From: Clostridioides sp. ES-S-0010-02
GTDB lineage: Bacteria; Bacillota; Clostridia; Peptostreptococcales; Peptostreptococcaceae
DNA: 64,000 bases
NCBI GenBank assembly: GCA_020641055.1
Contig: CP067345.1
Span: forward strand, 2,659,317-2,723,316
Reading direction: 5' to 3'
Shown: positions 6,861 through 57,673 of the stretch, piece by piece
Position numbering within the stretch: the stretch's first letter is position 1
Layout: the number at the start of each line of letters is the position of its first letter
The notes under the pieces: generated by a model
Told to the model about the DNA's origin: nothing
What the model saw: the letters and a program-made list of their open reading frames with translations, nothing else
The model's database searches: none
Position numbers and translations under genes: made by a program

Positions 6861-7625
6861 CTATTCTAAATTTAAATTTCTATCTAGTATATATTTTGTA
6901 GCAATAAATAATATTACTAAAATTATAATACTACCAAGTATAGCAAACATAAAATGAGAACTTTGATATAAATGATAAATCATGTTAGTATTTTCTCCTG
7001 GTAAAAATCTTTCAATTGTACTACCAACAGTTGATATTATCATATTTATAATTATAAAAGAAACAAATGCAGATACATTTCTATGTTTATTAAACTTTGG
7101 TAATTGCCCCATTGAAATTGCTGTATATAGCAATAAAATAAATGAAGTATATGAAATAAGCATTGTTAATAATAGCAAGAACATATCTAAAAAATTTTCA
7201 AACCCCAATCTGAAAACATTATTAAAAAAATCTAAAATCTCAGCAAATGCAATTCCAGAAGCACTAAAAAACATTAGTACTGCAAATGTACCTACTGCAA
7301 CTATAAAACTAAGTACCGCATATATAAGTGCTGTTATACATTTGGATAATATAAGTGAACTAGTACTAACAGGAAGAGTAAACATTAAATAGCCTTCATC
7401 TCCCAAAAGATTTTTTCTAAATCTTTGAATTGTAACTACAATAGTTAAAACACCCAGTGCCATAAAAAGACTTGTAAGTACAAGTATTCCTATTCCTTGT
7501 ATTTGGAATATATCAATCTTCATAAATATTCCATTTAATATAGCCACTACTATTATAGCTATATATAATGGTATAAACGTTCTTCCACTTGCCTTTAACT
7601 CATATTTTAATAGTTTTCCTAACAT
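6861..7625 (-). CDS. ABC transporter permease of GntR-linked exporter
   Basis: A 254-residue membrane protein with about six hydrophobic segments, typical of ABC-2-like permeases that pair with a YtrB-type ATPase. It begins with LLKYELKASGRTFIPLY, a cytoplasmic elbow helix seen in this class. The start overlaps the ATPase stop by 7 bases, so the two are translationally coupled. The substrate is not evident; related loci respond to cell-wall-active peptides. Confidence 0.82.
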   Translation of the reverse strand: MLGKLLKYELKASGRTFIPLYIAIIVVAILNGIFMKIDIFQIQGIGILVLTSLFMALGVLTIVVTIQRFRKNLLGDEGYLMFTLPVSTSSLILSKCITALIYAVLSFIVAVGTFAVLMFFSASGIAFAEILDFFNNVFRLGFENFLDMFLLLLTMLISYTSFILLLYTAISMGQLPKFNKHRNVSAFVSFIIINMIISTVGSTIERFLPGENTNMIYHLYQSSHFMFAILGSIIILVILFIATKYILDRNLNLE

Positions 7626-8344
7626 TTGAATTCCTCCCTAAATAATGCATCTATAGATTTACCTTTTTCCTCTCTTATTGATTCAACATCTCCTTGTAGT
7701 ACTATCTCACCTTTAGATATAAATATTACTTCATCACATATATTTTCTATCTCACTTATTAAATGAGTTGCAATCAGCAAAGTACTATCCTCATAATAGT
7801 TTTTTAGTATAGTCTTAAGTATATATGACCTTGCAGCTGGGTCAACACCTCCAATAGGCTCATCTAAAATATATATATTTGCTTTTCTTGACATAACCAG
7901 AATAAGTTGTACTTTTTCTTTAGTTCCTTTAGACATTGTTTTTAATTTTTCATCTACATCAATATCTAAACTCTTAATCATTTCATTTGCCCTTCTAACA
8001 TCAAAATCACTATAAAAATCATAGAAAAATTTAAGTAAATCTGATACTTTCATCCAGTCGTTTAAATAAGTTCTTTCTGGTAGGTATGATACTATTTTCT
8101 TTGTTTCTATAGATGGCTTCATTCCATTTATCATAATTTCACCATCATCAGGTTGTAATAATCCATTCATCAATTTAATCATTGTACTTTTACCACTTCC
8201 ATTAGGACCTAACAAGCCAACTATTTTTCCTTTTGGTATATTCAACTCAACATTCTTTAAAACCTTTTTAGTTCCATAGCTTTTATTTACACCTTTAAAT
8301 TCAACTATGTCATTTTGAGAAACATCATTTATATTTTTATCCAT
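7619..8344 (-). CDS. ABC transporter ATPase (YtrB-like)
   Basis: A 241-residue nucleotide-binding subunit. Walker A is GPNGSGKST (about residues 46-54), the signature is degenerate (MSKGTKEKVQL), and Walker B is IYILDEPIGGVD. The weak signature motif is common in the YtrB/BcrA-type exporters that sit next to GntR regulators. It starts 1 base after the GntR stop, and the permease follows with a 7-base overlap: one operon of three genes. Confidence 0.9.
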   Translation of the reverse strand: MDKNINDVSQNDIVEFKGVNKSYGTKKVLKNVELNIPKGKIVGLLGPNGSGKSTMIKLMNGLLQPDDGEIMINGMKPSIETKKIVSYLPERTYLNDWMKVSDLLKFFYDFYSDFDVRRANEMIKSLDIDVDEKLKTMSKGTKEKVQLILVMSRKANIYILDEPIGGVDPAARSYILKTILKNYYEDSTLLIATHLISEIENICDEVIFISKGEIVLQGDVESIREEKGKSIDALFREEFKC

Positions 8345-8345
8345 T

Positions 8346-8720
8346 TTATAATTCTCCTTTCAAATTTTCTGTTATAAGTTTTAACATTTCATCTTCGTCA
8401 TATCCAAGTTTTACTAAAGTCTCTTTTAATGTATTTATTTCAACATTGGCTATTTCCTCTTTCATAGCTTTTATTTTTTCCTTATCATCTGTTACAAATC
8501 TTCCTTTTGTTCTTTGGCTATAAACCAATCCTTGTCTTTCCAGTTCTGTTAAAGCTTTTTGCATCGTATTTGGATTAACTTCAGCATCCTCAGCAAGTGC
8601 TCTTACTGTTTCTAATTTAGAACCTATTTTTATTTCCCCTGAAACTATTTTTAACTTTAGATGTTCTACTAATTGTATATATATAGGTTTGTTATTATCA
8701 AGTTCCCATTCCATATTCAT
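8346..8720 (-). CDS. GntR-family regulator, YtrA subfamily
   Basis: A 124-residue repressor-type protein. Residues 1-75 form the winged helix (KPIYIQLVEHLKLKIVSGEI through DAEVNPNTMQKALTELERQG). The C-terminal tail of about 45 residues is the short dimerisation helix pair typical of the YtrA subfamily, with no ligand-binding domain. It is the first gene of its operon and probably represses its own promoter through the palindrome at 8732-8781. Confidence 0.92.
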   Translation of the reverse strand: MNMEWELDNNKPIYIQLVEHLKLKIVSGEIKIGSKLETVRALAEDAEVNPNTMQKALTELERQGLVYSQRTKGRFVTDDKEKIKAMKEEIANVEINTLKETLVKLGYDEDEMLKLITENLKGEL

Positions 8721-9106: not shown

Positions 9107-9559
9107 TTACTTTTTTATCCTTTTAGCAAATTTTTCCTTAGCAAAATCGTATGACTCTTGTATCATTACTTTTAATTCTTTAAATGTTTTTTCTGAAGGA
9201 TTTAAGACACACACCCATCCCATCCATGCATAAACAGGATGAGGCATAATTGTATCCAGTTTTGTAAAATCAAAGTCCATTTTCACAATTTGCCCAGCAT
9301 CTGGTCGTTTTGGGATATTATCAAACCTTTTAATAAATGTTTCCTTTTTCAAGCATACATTTACACGATAAACATTACTTCGGTTTAGTGATGAACTTTT
9401 GTCATTTTCACCATCTTTTTCTTTGATAGTAAGAACATATACTCCTTTCTTTAAAATACCATTAGGATTATAAAATATCCCTCTTTCCCCCCAATTTTCT
9501 GTTAAAACAACATCATCTAAATTTGATACACAGTAATTGAATATATCGTCAGCTTTCAT
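9107..9559 (-). CDS. DUF6194-like protein of unknown function
   Basis: A 150-residue soluble protein. The C-terminal half carries PHPVYAWMGWVCVLNP and KRPDAGQIVKMDFDF, which I associate with the DUF6194 family; the match is from memory. The N-terminal part (NWGERGIFYNPNGILKKGVYVLTI) resembles the MmcQ/YjbR-like fold in layout. No catalytic residues can be named. It is divergent from the WYL regulator at 9668 and the two share a 108-base intergenic region with a perfect palindrome, so the regulator may control it. Confidence 0.75.
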   Translation of the reverse strand: MKADDIFNYCVSNLDDVVLTENWGERGIFYNPNGILKKGVYVLTIKEKDGENDKSSSLNRSNVYRVNVCLKKETFIKRFDNIPKRPDAGQIVKMDFDFTKLDTIMPHPVYAWMGWVCVLNPSEKTFKELKVMIQESYDFAKEKFAKRIKK

Positions 9560-9622
9560 ATTAAATATCCATCCTTTCTATAATATTTATATTGCTTTCA
9601 ACACGATAATATCCTATCATAT

Positions 9623-9647
9623 AATAGTGACAATAATTGTCACTATT
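9623..9647. promoter_or_regulatory. Palindromic operator between DUF6194-like gene and WYL regulator
   Basis: A perfect 25-bp palindrome: arms AATAGTGACAAT (9623-9634) and ATTGTCACTATT (9636-9647) around a single central base. It lies 21 bases before the regulator start codon and 64 bases before the divergent gene. Its position and symmetry suggest the binding site of the adjacent regulator. Confidence 0.7.
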
Positions 9648-9667
9648 GTAAAAAAAGGAGTAGAAAA

Positions 9668-10627
9668 ATGTCAAAGGCTGAGCGCTTAATTGAATTGATG
9701 ATAACTATAAATGCAAAAAGAAATTTTACTCTAAGAGAATTGGCTGAAGAATTTTGTGTATCAAAACGAACAATACTTAGAGATTTACAAGCTTTAGAAA
9801 GCATGGGATTCCCTCTATATTCAAAAACAGGAGCAACAGGTGGTTATCATATGTTAAAAGAACGTATATTACCACCAATTACCTTTTCAGAAAGTGAAGC
9901 AAAAGCAATATTTTTTGCCTATCAATCGTTAGCTTTTTATCGTGATTTGCCATTTGAACAAGAGAGAGTCTCTGTATTAAAAAAGTTTTTAAATTGTCTA
10001 CCAGCAGATGTACAACATAATATTACTCAAATACAAAATAAAATTGTATTCTGGACACCAGATAGACATTGCTCTTCTCCCTTGCTAAAAGAACTATTTA
10101 ACATAATTACAAATAATTCTGCTCTTACAGTTCAATATTCATCAAATAAAAACCAAAGTATCAGAACTATTATACCTGTTGGTTTATATGCAATGAATGG
10201 TCTTTGGTACTGTCCAGCGTATTGCTTAAAGTCAAAATCTATCCGTGAATTTCGTGTAGACAGAATTGAAAAGATTGTAAGTATAGAAAATATAACAAGT
10301 TCAAAATACAGTATTCCAAATTCAATACATGAATATCTTGAAAATTTAAAAGTTGCTAAAGATTATCATATTAAAATTCAACTAACAGATATAGGAGTAA
10401 AACGCTGTGAGACAGAATTTCTATTAGCAAAAGGATTGACTGTTTTTCCTAATGGCGGTTACATAGATATGTATGTCTCAAAAACAACACTAAACTGGGT
10501 AGCTGAATACTTCTTGTCATTTGGAAAAGAGGCCACAGTACTAGAACCAATTGAGCTTAAAACATTGATAAAATCAAAAGTTCAGGAGTTATACAATCAT
10601 TACTGCAAAATAAACACTGAAGTGTAA
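9668..10627 (+). CDS. HTH-WYL transcriptional regulator (YobV/YafY-like)
   Basis: A 319-residue protein. Residues about 5-60 are an HTH_11 winged helix (NFTLRELAEEFCVSKRTILRDLQALESMG), and the rest contains a WYL-type domain (about 140-225; VGLYAMNGLWYCPAYC with FRVDRIEKI) and a C-terminal WCX-like extension. WYL regulators sense small ligands or nucleic acids and often control a divergent gene. AAAAAAGGAG upstream is a good ribosome-binding site. The promoter region contains the 25-bp palindrome, suggesting autoregulation. Confidence 0.88.
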   Translation: MSKAERLIELMITINAKRNFTLRELAEEFCVSKRTILRDLQALESMGFPLYSKTGATGGYHMLKERILPPITFSESEAKAIFFAYQSLAFYRDLPFEQERVSVLKKFLNCLPADVQHNITQIQNKIVFWTPDRHCSSPLLKELFNIITNNSALTVQYSSNKNQSIRTIIPVGLYAMNGLWYCPAYCLKSKSIREFRVDRIEKIVSIENITSSKYSIPNSIHEYLENLKVAKDYHIKIQLTDIGVKRCETEFLLAKGLTVFPNGGYIDMYVSKTTLNWVAEYFLSFGKEATVLEPIELKTLIKSKVQELYNHYCKINTEV

Positions 10628-10819: not shown

Positions 10820-12364
10820 TTATTCTTTTGCTGAAGTGTATGCAATCAATTTTTCAAATTCTTCAATTGGCATTGGTTTTCCAAATAGATATCCTTGTGC
10901 CATATCACATTTGACTTCCTTCAATAGTTTAAACTGTGCTTCTGTCTCTACACCTTCAGATATTACTTTCATCCCCAATTCCTTTGCCATCTCTACAACT
11001 TTAGTAACAATTATTTTACTTCTCTTACTATTATATGTTTCCATGATAAATTTTTGGTCAAGTTTTAAAATATCCATAGGAATTTCTTTTAACATATTTA
11101 ATGATGAATACCCTGAACCAAAATCATCCATAGATATTAAAAAACCTATCTCTTTTAAACTATTCATTATATCAATTAAAATATCAAAATTATCAAATAT
11201 AATACTCTCAGTTAATTCAAGTTCTATATATTTTGCAGGTATATTGTACTTGTCAATTATATTTTTATAGGTTTCTATAAAATTATTACAATATAAATGT
11301 ATTCTTGATACATTAACTGAAATAGTTAATGGGTTTATACCTGTGTCAATCCATTTTCTAAGTTGTATACAAACTTCTTCTAGTACATATAAATCTAAAT
11401 TTATTATAAAACCATTTTTCTCAAAAAATGGTATAAACTCATTTGGAGGAATTAATCCCTTATCACGACTTTTCCATCGTACAAGTGCTTCCGAACCTTG
11501 TATTTCTCCTGTATTTAGTTCTATTTTAGGTTGCAAGTATACTATGAACTCTTTATTTTCTAAGCTTGAGAACATTGTATTTTCCATCTCTTTTTCTTTT
11601 ATTTCTTGATCATGAATCTTGTTGTCATAAAATGCATATGAACTTTTATGTCCTCCCTTTGCCATTTTATGAGGTATATTAGCTCTATCTATTATTGGGT
11701 TGATATCTTTATCTTCTGGAAGTATAAAGTATATTCCACAACTTAAAACTAATTTATATTTTTCTTCCTGATTATTATTAAATAAATCCAATTCTTTAAA
11801 TATACATTCTAATCTATTTATTATATCTTCTTCTTCTCTATATTTCATGATTATTGTGAAATTATCAGCAGATATCCTTGCAAATATTTCTTCTTCAAAT
11901 ATATTATGTTTAATAATATTTGTTAAACTACATAAAATTTTATTTCCCACTTCATATCCAAACAAATCATTTATATACTTAAATTTATCAATATCTATAT
12001 ATAATAACGCATATTTCTCTTGAGCGTTTTTGCTTAATATTTTTTTAGCATCAATTACAAATTTATCCATAGTACTTGCTCCTGTAAGACCATCTGTATA
12101 TACTATCTTTTGCAATTTAACTCTTAAACTTAATTTATCATATATTATATAAAAAATAAGTACTAGACATATTATCGTCATAATAAATATTATCTGCAAT
12201 GCATAGTAGCTAATAAATTGTTTATTAAATAATCTGAATTCAAGGTTATTTATGGAGTTATTTTTATAAAGCTTATGTAAAGAATAGACTGGTGTTGTAT
12301 ATTTAACTTGTAAAATTATACAAATAAATAAAAAAACCATTAATTTTTTTTGTAATTTCCTCAT
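10820..12364 (-). CDS. pdcC: Membrane c-di-GMP phosphodiesterase with degenerate GGDEF and intact EAL domain
   Basis: A 514-residue protein. Two hydrophobic stretches (about 8-22 and 50-75) anchor it in the membrane. Residues about 90-245 are a GGDEF domain whose signature is SADNF (165-169), so it should not make c-di-GMP. Residues about 265-510 are an EAL domain with the catalytic set present: E292-A-L, the D413-D-F-G motif, K434 in the KLD segment, and E470/E473 (SEGVETE). Hydrolysis of c-di-GMP to pGpG is predicted, which would favour motility and oppose biofilm traits. The gene lies directly behind an invertible promoter. Two phase-variable phosphodiesterases, pdcB and pdcC, are known in C. 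difficile; I believe this locus (CD1616 type) is pdcC, but the symbol is tentative. It is followed by its own terminator. Confidence 0.85.
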   Translation of the reverse strand: MRKLQKKLMVFLFICIILQVKYTTPVYSLHKLYKNNSINNLEFRLFNKQFISYYALQIIFIMTIICLVLIFYIIYDKLSLRVKLQKIVYTDGLTGASTMDKFVIDAKKILSKNAQEKYALLYIDIDKFKYINDLFGYEVGNKILCSLTNIIKHNIFEEEIFARISADNFTIIMKYREEEDIINRLECIFKELDLFNNNQEEKYKLVLSCGIYFILPEDKDINPIIDRANIPHKMAKGGHKSSYAFYDNKIHDQEIKEKEMENTMFSSLENKEFIVYLQPKIELNTGEIQGSEALVRWKSRDKGLIPPNEFIPFFEKNGFIINLDLYVLEEVCIQLRKWIDTGINPLTISVNVSRIHLYCNNFIETYKNIIDKYNIPAKYIELELTESIIFDNFDILIDIMNSLKEIGFLISMDDFGSGYSSLNMLKEIPMDILKLDQKFIMETYNSKRSKIIVTKVVEMAKELGMKVISEGVETEAQFKLLKEVKCDMAQGYLFGKPMPIEEFEKLIAYTSAKE

Positions 12365-12437
12365 AAAAATTTCCTCCCATTAAAGCACCTCTATTTGATT
12401 ATAAATCACTAGCAAACAAACACATTCCAAAAGTTTC

Positions 12438-12461
12438 CATTTCTTGTAAAATGGATAGTTT
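12438..12461 (+). repeat. Left inverted repeat of the invertible promoter element
   Basis: 24 bases beginning CATTTCTTGTAAAATGGATA; the exact reverse complement is at 12677-12700. Weaker symmetry (AAAAGT) continues three bases further out on both sides. Perfect arms of this length separated by 215 bp upstream of a single gene are typical of tyrosine-recombinase inversion sites. Confidence 0.9.
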
Positions 12462-12574
12462 TTATTAAAAATTAATATAATTATAATATAAAAATAAAAT
12501 TTTTCAGAAAATTCATAGAAAGATATAGGCTTTTCATCAATAATTATATGCCAAAATAATCCAATTTATTTTCT

Positions 12575-12603
12575 ATTATACCGATATGAAATGTATAAAT
12601 CAA
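12575..12603 (-). promoter_or_regulatory. Sigma-A promoter inside the invertible element
   Basis: TTGATT (12598-12603) and TATAAT (12575-12580) on the minus strand with an exact 17-base spacer. Transcription would start near 12568, giving a leader of about 200 bases that includes one copy of the inverted repeat before the phosphodiesterase start codon at 12364. Confidence 0.75.
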
Positions 12604-12676
12604 TAGGAAAGACAACTAATATAACATATTCTATATATATAGTATAGCAAAATTTTACAAATTTTAAAATAAATAT

Positions 12677-12700
12677 AAACTATCCATTTTACAAGAAATG
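12677..12700 (-). repeat. Right inverted repeat of the invertible promoter element
   Basis: Exact reverse complement of 12438-12461, ending TTTTACAAGAAATG on the plus strand. See the left arm. Confidence 0.9.
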
Positions 12701-12884
12701 ACTACTTTTTATTAAAACACAGTATTTCCAATACATTCACCTTTAAAATTTCATTATGTTTTTCTTCTTCTATTCATTTCGACAAATCAACACTTAATTT
12801 TTATAATTAACTAAATTGAATAATATTTAATATAAATTTTTTAATATGCCATTTTTACCTAATTTTTTAAAGTCATTTTTTAGA

Positions 12885-12952
12885 TATAAACTCTTTATAA
12901 ATTCATTTATATAATTAAAATATTATATAAATGAATTTATAAAGAGTTTATA
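12885..12952. repeat. Perfect 31-bp inverted repeat with 6-bp centre
   Basis: Arms 12885-12915 and 12922-12952 are exact reverse complements around TAAAAT. The outer part reads TATAAACTCTTTATAAATTC. It is almost entirely A/T and lacks a T tract, so it is not an ordinary terminator. It lies between the inversion switch and the NatB-like gene's terminator. Role unknown: cruciform, mobile remnant or protein site are all possible. Confidence 0.85.
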
Positions 12953-12967
12953 TAATGAATAAATAAA

Positions 12968-13030
12968 TAAAATAACACTAAAGTATATATAAATAAAGCA
13001 ATACTTATATATTTTAGTGTTATTTATTAT
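12968..13030 (-). terminator. Terminator of the NatA/NatB-CPBP operon
   Basis: Inverted repeat AATAACACTAAA (about 12971-12982) with TTTAGTGTTATT (about 13013-13024), with further A/T pairing toward the loop, about 30 bases after the stop at 13056. The minus strand continues with TTATTTATT. Confidence 0.7.
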
Positions 13031-35430: not shown

Positions 35431-35478
35431 AAATTCGCATATATCACAAATAATACATACTTAAGTTTTATACTAAGC

Positions 35479-35552
35479 TTTCCTACGCTGGCATTATCCA
35501 GTTCAGGTGTAAGGGTCGGTATTCCTCTCAGCTCTTGGCTCCCCTAGCTATT
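35479..35552 (-). promoter_or_regulatory. TPP riboswitch (thi box)
   Basis: The minus strand contains the conserved elements in order: GGGGAGCC, GCTGAGAGG, ACCCTTACACCTGAACTGG and ATAATGCCAGCGTAGG. All the strongly conserved thi-box bases are present. It controls the thiD-thiM-thiE operon. Confidence 0.97.
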
Positions 35553-35648
35553 TTAATTTATTATATTTATAACTTCATTATATTACAATAGTATTTATTG
35601 TCAAGTTTTTACACTGTATACACTTATTTACAATATAATTAAAGACAC

Positions 35649-57024: not shown

Positions 57025-57285
57025 AAAATAGACCCATCCCTATATAAAGGGACGAGTCTATACTCGCGGTTCCACCCAATTTGATTTTTGTCAATTATTG
57101 ACAAAATCCACTTTGTACTTTAACGCAGTTAACGGTTAATCTTACTAAAACTCTTTTTAGAGTAACTTCAGATAACAGCTCCTAGGTAGTTTTCAATCCC
57201 TCTAATTTAAAAAGTCTTTCAGCCAATGGACTTTTCTCTCTGATAATCGAATTAGATTTACTCTTCCTATTCATCGCTTTTATAA
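57025..57285 (-). promoter_or_regulatory. T-box riboswitch, hom-proximal copy
   Basis: On the minus strand: stem I from GCGATGAATAGG, AGAGAGAAAAGTCCATTGG, the specifier loop GATTGAAAACTACC, the antiterminator TGGGTGGAACCGCGAG, and the terminator stem TAGACTCGTCCC with GGGATGGGTCTA and T run (57025-57062). In the specifier loop ACT (Thr) followed by A is the best codon. It ends 65 bases before the hom start. Confidence 0.95.
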
Positions 57286-57330
57286 TTTTTTATAATTCCT
57301 TTTTATACTTTCAAATAATATTTTAAATAA

Positions 57331-57592
57331 CAAAAAACTCCCATCCTTATAATATAAGGACGAGAGTATAATTCCCGCGGTTCCACCTAATTTAGTTTTC
57401 ATTTTTTATGAAAACCCACTTTAAACTTTAACGTAGTTAACGACTATTCTTACTAAAATCTATTAATATAGATAACTTCAGAAAGTAGCTCCTAGGTAGT
57501 TTTCAATCTCTCTAATTTAAAAAGTCTTTCAGCCAATGGACTTTTCTCTCTGATAATCGAATTAGATTTACTCTTCCTATTCATCGCTTTTT
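57331..57592 (-). promoter_or_regulatory. T-box riboswitch, hom-distal copy
   Basis: Same elements as the proximal copy: stem I from AAGCGATGAATAGGAAGAG, AGAGAGAAAAGTCC, GATTGAAAACTACC (Thr-type specifier ACT), antiterminator AGGTGGAACCGCGGG and a terminator stem ACTCTCGTCC...GGATGGGAGT with T run (57331-57369). About 110 bases of the 5' part are almost identical to the proximal copy, implying a tandem duplication. Both must read through for hom to be made. Confidence 0.95.
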
Positions 57593-57673
57593 TATTTATT
57601 ATATTGTAATTTATTTTAAACCCTTACAAATAAATTGTCAATAGTTTTTTTAATTTTATTTTTTATACTTAAT

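Follow-up and report, generated by a model that had tools for sequence, protein, structure and literature searches.

The invertible promoter of the phosphodiesterase gene pdcC across Clostridioides genomes and its probable kinship with the cmr switch

Introduction

Seven invertible sites of 154–230 bp are described in PMC5903667, where RecV is reported to act in trans on several of the switches. One of them, Cdi3, belongs to pdcC (CDR20291_1514; PMC9286219). The published orientation of the pdcC element is assigned as OFF and its inverse as ON; reporter activity and a start by 5' RACE were obtained in the ON orientation only (PMC9286219). In strain R20291 the inverse (ON) orientation accounts for 51.4% at Cdi3 and 4.3% at Cdi6 (PMC5903667).

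Two further switches bear directly on the locus examined here. The pdcB switch (Cdi2), as published, likewise places an invertible promoter before a gene for an EAL phosphodiesterase; it measures 174 bp, has imperfect 19-bp repeats and lies 840 bp before a gene encoding a PAS-GGDEF-EAL protein. The cmr switch (Cdi6), unlike that of pdcC, precedes a response-regulator operon (cmrRST) with a c-di-GMP riboswitch, and for the ON orientation a cmr transcription start, TSS2, was mapped to a position 336 nt upstream of cmrR (PMC8844915). The repeats of these sites are stated in PMC5903667 to be unrelated apart from those of Cdi2 and Cdi5.

Results and discussion

Perfect inverted repeats (24 of 24 bp) were found at 12438–12461 and 12677–12700 of the window, by which we mean the whole 64-kb stretch of DNA that was analysed. 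The element comprises a gene-side arm (12438–12461, plus strand), an invertible core of 215 bp (12462–12676) and an upstream-side arm (12677–12700, minus strand). With its arms it measures 263 bp and occupies the intergenic region before pdcC, leaving a gap of 73 bp between the gene-side arm and the pdcC ATG. An earlier note made from the letters of this DNA had described perfect 24-bp repeats around 215 bp, and every coordinate was reproduced by the repeat scan. A scan of the 64 kb with a minimum perfect arm of 14 bp and spacers of 100–400 bp returned this pair as the single match. When the window was shuffled 100 times with its dinucleotide content preserved, the longest inverted repeat was 18 bp, so that none of the 100 reached 19 bp, and 65 were without any repeat of at least 14 bp.

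The gene downstream of the element (10820–12364, minus strand, ATG at 12364) encodes a 514-aa GGDEF-EAL protein with Pfam matches to EAL (6e-66) and GGDEF (9.4e-22), and a PAS domain gave no match in the Pfam scan of the product. EALVRW, ELTES, DDFGSGYSS, EGVE, QGYLFGKP and GGDEF are the motifs that count for catalysis in proteins of this kind. In the translation the GGDEF motif is degenerate and reads SADNF, and the others are all present. Further along the minus strand, at 6861–8720, lie genes for a GntR-type regulator identified by family matches (clnR, 8346–8720) and for an ABC ATPase-like protein (clnA, 7619–8344) and a membrane protein (clnB, 6861–7625), the latter two read from sequence and gene order. 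CD630_16160 precedes clnR in the published gene order, in which clnR, clnA and clnB (GntR regulator, ATP-binding component and permease) are CD630_16170, CD630_16180 and CD630_16190 (PMC6117091). CD1616 is the orthologue of CDR20291_1514 (PMC3754575), and the position near clnRAB therefore identifies the gene as CD630_16160 and thus as pdcC.

In 6 of 8 Clostridioides species genomes compared, pdcC stands directly beside clnR, whereas in the window's own genome (G000) and in G005 two extra genes lie between them, a difference from the published locus. These are a WYL/HTH regulator gene and a 150-aa open reading frame (9107–10627), absent at this place from the other six. Two genomes, G002 and G004, carry near an amidohydrolase-like gene (positions ~1–500 of loci L131 and L133) a piece resembling the end of a transposon protein, which we take to be of the TnpB type.

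The element shares with the pdcC switch of C. difficile its gene, by synteny and domains, its place directly upstream, the promoter inside it and the ON state when that promoter faces the gene. It differs in that the window assembly is in the ON orientation and the published R20291 reference is OFF. We hold it as almost certain, for the explanation developed here as a whole, that the element is the pdcC switch (Cdi3), an identification made by synteny, domains and published description. The repeats, the two orientations described below and the EAL domain uphold the earlier reading that the promoter of a c-di-GMP phosphodiesterase gene is invertible here. That reading was also correct that phase-variable phosphodiesterases are known in C. 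difficile, but the element is itself the published one and no fresh example. What is added here is its conservation in both orientations throughout the genus and an ancestry shared with the cmr switch.

The chance that the element is instead the switch of pdcB is close to nil. The pdcB gene, too, is preceded by a switch and encodes an EAL domain, yet the published sizes, repeat type, leader and domain content set out above differ from the 215-bp core, perfect 24-bp arms, 73-bp arm-to-ATG distance, absent PAS match and clnRAB neighbourhood in the window; by published description, size, repeat length, leader and gene architecture all set the two switches apart. On these grounds the gene was rejected as pdcB. 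In a search for pdcB itself near the 21 other EAL genes of the genome, perfect repeats of 13–14 bp with spacers of 90–350 bp occurred in 8 of 21 stretches of ~8 kb, and repeats matching at 17 or more of 20 positions lay no more than 1.5 kb before the gene at 3 of 21 loci. Neither repeat scan yielded a fitting pdcB candidate among these 21 loci, the perfect-repeat scan being blind to imperfect switches, as shown by its empty result for the control L164, the locus of the imperfect cmr switch. One locus, L155, was dropped as pdcB, as its repeats lie 386–209 bp before the start compared with the ~840 bp expected.

Promoter and orientation of the element

A promoter of the form TTGATT-N17-TATAAT was located within the core on the minus strand, facing the GGDEF-EAL gene at 10820–12364. 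The −35 hexamer (12598–12603) recurs in every one of the eight species genomes and in 12 copies of the cmr-type and third switches described below; the −10 hexamer (12575–12580) is conserved among the species and has a homologue in the cmr switch. Hexamers, spacing and direction agree with the earlier note. By itself the pattern is weak, with 13 matches in 801 bp compared with a shuffle mean of 10.0 (sd 3.0). The promoter is nevertheless credible because it is conserved across species and homologous to the promoter of the cmr switch, for which a start has been mapped. Six of the eight species genomes have all 29 promoter positions in common (29/29), against 28/29 in G007 and 27/29 in G001. Converted to the orientation of L002, and assuming equal lengths in R20291, the cmr start TSS2 falls at 1641, which is 6 nt past the −10 at 1652–1647.

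By analogy with cmr TSS2, pdcC transcription in the ON orientation would be expected to start near 12569 on the minus strand. The predicted 5' leader, delimited by promoter and ATG, spans about 205 nt (12365–12569, minus strand) and would cross the gene-side arm; GGGAGG at 12373–12378 of the same strand, 8 nt from the ATG, reads as the likely ribosome-binding site. The element in this assembly thus appears to be ON, a state inferred for the strain and agreeing with the published assignment for pdcC, in which the promoter facing the gene is ON. The ON call of the earlier note is borne out to this extent.

An inverting switch might also exert its control through RNA after transcription initiation or through a promoter outside the element. 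Both have precedents in PMC9286219, in which the cwpV and flg switches are published as acting after initiation and pdcB has an additional promoter upstream of its own switch. At the present locus, a simple pattern scan for intrinsic terminators on both strands of 12200–13000 returned 0 sites, and accordingly no cwpV-type terminator formed in one orientation was found there. Across the eight species genomes the promoter is moreover conserved throughout, against a core identity of only ~84–96%, and the published pdcC reporter and 5' RACE results place the start in the active orientation only (PMC9286219). We therefore regard control after initiation, or from an outside promoter, as very unlikely, and initiation at the promoter within the core is preferred.

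Inversion across Clostridioides genomes

The element was compared among eight Clostridioides species genomes (G000–G007), the window's own genome G000 being counted among the eight, and was present in 8 of 8. Relative to the flanks, the core is oriented as in the window in G000, G005 and G003 (3/8), opposite to both flanks in G001, G004, G006 and G007 (4/8) and found both ways in G002, counts that compare genomes of different species with one assembly per genome, the window strain being represented by a single assembly in one orientation. The earlier note had proposed that other assemblies be compared for both orientations, and both were found. In the draft assembly of G002, one contig end reads as the window does, and the other end and the next contig are opposite. 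A run of N (a scaffold gap) lies near the first copy, and an assembly effect could contribute to this picture; the G002 result supports inversion but is suggestive only.

The bases bordering the arms were followed in nine two-armed copies. Outside the arm on the pdcC side AAAGTTTC is found in 9 of 9, whatever the core orientation, and outside the arm on the upstream side all eight copies that extend so far have AAAGTAGT, the ninth (contig C60 of G004) being cut off there. The bases immediately inside the arms swap ends with the core orientation. Fixed outer bases together with swapped inner bases are the mark of site-specific inversion within the 24 bp.

A reading of the repeats as relics, left by an element that once inverted and has become fixed in the window strain, would fit the single G000 assembly, which displays one orientation only. 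The arms, however, are perfect (24/24) in 8 of 8 genomes despite a core identity of only ~84–96%. The gene-side arm is the same in seven of the eight, and in G003 one arm base departs from the other species with the identical change in both of its own arms. Perfect arms over a diverged core and the paired change in G003 suggest continued recombination or selection on it, and we would give a fixed relic a slightly smaller chance still than control after initiation. Perfect arms in all eight genomes, taken with the occurrence of both orientations, suggest that PdcC has long been phase-variable in the genus, and not in epidemic strains alone.

Among more distant relatives, 1.2 kb upstream was scanned for perfect repeats, a search that imperfect switches would escape, in 23 of 80 related loci. 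A 24-bp repeat was found only in L006 and L007, both Clostridioides pdcC orthologues, while 4 of the remaining regions had 11-bp repeats and 17 had none of at least 11 bp. The scan left out L008 and L009, pdcC orthologues with 160–340 bases upstream, and 55 further loci.

Mechanism and recombinase

In the mechanism that we favour, a recombinase acting in trans would recombine the two 24-bp sites and flip the 215-bp core, a role that on published evidence would fall at least in part to RecV. With the core lying as it does here, its promoter would drive transcription across the gene-side repeat and into pdcC (ON); after inversion, transcription from that promoter would run away from pdcC (OFF). 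Cells in the ON state would be expected to have lowered c-di-GMP. Loss of recV impaired inversion of Cdi3, and overexpression of recV left Cdi3 proportions unchanged (PMC5903667), a result that counts against the RecV part of this explanation.

Within the 64-kb window no recombinase gene was found, as the earlier note had observed; the genome has 10 tyrosine-recombinase profile matches, one of them under the family cut-off, and 6 serine-recombinase matches, all outside the window. This absence is normal since RecV acts in trans. The nearest tyrosine- and serine-recombinase matches lie about 283 kb and 196 kb from the window ends, and none of the 10 tyrosine-recombinase matches was identified as RecV. 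Recombinase genes adjoin fimS in Escherichia coli, in contrast to the pdcC switch, which has none nearby. Inversion of a promoter between inverted repeats is otherwise common to both, a likeness in mode of working (fimS is cited in PMC8844915).

Relationship to the cmr switch and to a third element

The pdcC element aligns with the cmr switch (Cdi6) of the same genome (G000:578565–578782), the two being ~71% identical over 184–217 bp. The local alignment score was 114 compared with a mean of 30.5 (sd 4.5, maximum 57) in 500 shuffles, and with the arms removed the core still scored 86 against a shuffle maximum of 50. The switches are homologous, and their promoters and recombination sites align without any change of relative orientation; they differ in that the cmr arms are imperfect and those of pdcC perfect. 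Judged by this alignment, the published statement of unrelated repeats does not hold for Cdi3 and Cdi6 in G000. No mention of the pdcC-cmr homology was found in the literature searched, which was available in part and makes this a weak negative. The kinship provides aligned recombination sites for asking which of their features the recombinase recognises, an issue that PMC5386303 leaves open.

A third element was found before response-regulator genes in G005, G001, G002 and G006 (~4360–5330 of L136, L137, L142 and L141, respectively). Its copy in G005 scored 109 with the pdcC switch and 211 with the cmr switch, the shuffle maxima being 50 and 44 (500 shuffles each), and the arms of the G005 and G001 copies resemble those of pdcC and cmr. 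It is apparently an undescribed invertible promoter, present in four species and homologous to both the cmr and the pdcC switch.

Thirteen loci were checked for the promoter, which was present in 12 (8 cmr-type and 4 third-switch) and absent in L189. Relative to the nearby response-regulator gene, it points away at 9 of these 12 loci and towards at 1 (L185, at a contig start), no such gene being recognised near L184 and L187 (2/12). The pdcC promoter in the eight species genomes points towards its gene in 3, away in 4 and is mixed in 1. The ON proportions of Cdi6 and Cdi3 in R20291 agree in direction with this split between cmr-type and pdcC switches. A mostly-OFF cmr switch is no rule because Clade 5 strains, as published, can be 70–96% cmr-ON.

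One site plan, AAAGT-N2-CC-N-TTT-N-TTG-N-AAAA-N-GG, is matched in full by one arm of the pdcC switch and one of the cmr switch, and at all but one position by the other arm of each; agreement is poorer for the third switch. The central arm bases agree within one switch and differ between the pdcC, cmr and third switches. On these comparisons the three switches probably share a single ancestral invertible promoter module, copies of which came to stand before several signalling genes and have kept one site plan; each site would then pair only with its own partner. If true, this would be the start of the core consensus for RecV-type sites hoped for in PMC5386303.

Consequences for c-di-GMP and phenotype

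The earlier note had concluded from the switch that c-di-GMP levels are bistable in the population, a step too far for one gene of about 22. The genome gave 23 EAL matches, one of them a fragment with stops, that is, ~22 EAL genes including pdcC. Deletion of pdcC in R20291 raised biofilm ~2-fold and left swimming and surface motility unchanged, and the differences in c-di-GMP reported in PMC9286219 were measured in pdcB-locked strains. The pdcC and flg switches flipped during mutant construction in the same study (PMC9286219).

An agr-mutant study (PMC3754575) reported pdcB, pdcC and CDR20291_3126–3128 (cmrRST), all of them phase-variable, as underexpressed; pdcA, which is not known as phase-variable, was likewise among the underexpressed genes. 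The phase state of the clone may explain part of the agr-mutant expression changes, and differences in pdcB, pdcC and cmr expression between single clones in such work may reflect phase states instead of regulation.

Other features of the window

An Rfam scan of the window returned 3 matches, none near the pdcC switch, namely two tandem T-box leaders (57045–57593) and a TPP riboswitch (35463–35555, minus strand). Between the switch and an ABC operon, at 12884–12953, lies a hairpin whose 32-bp stem is perfect and whose loop has 6 nt (z −9.4). A T-run is absent downstream on both strands and the hairpin is thus not a plain terminator. Elsewhere in the genome only weak partial matches to it were found. 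No perfect stem of at least 10 bp is present in G007 and G001, G003 is mostly without the hairpin, G006 has 15 bp only and G005 keeps 28 bp. In G002 and G004 the arm sequences are changed yet complementary, over 28 and 27 bp, respectively.
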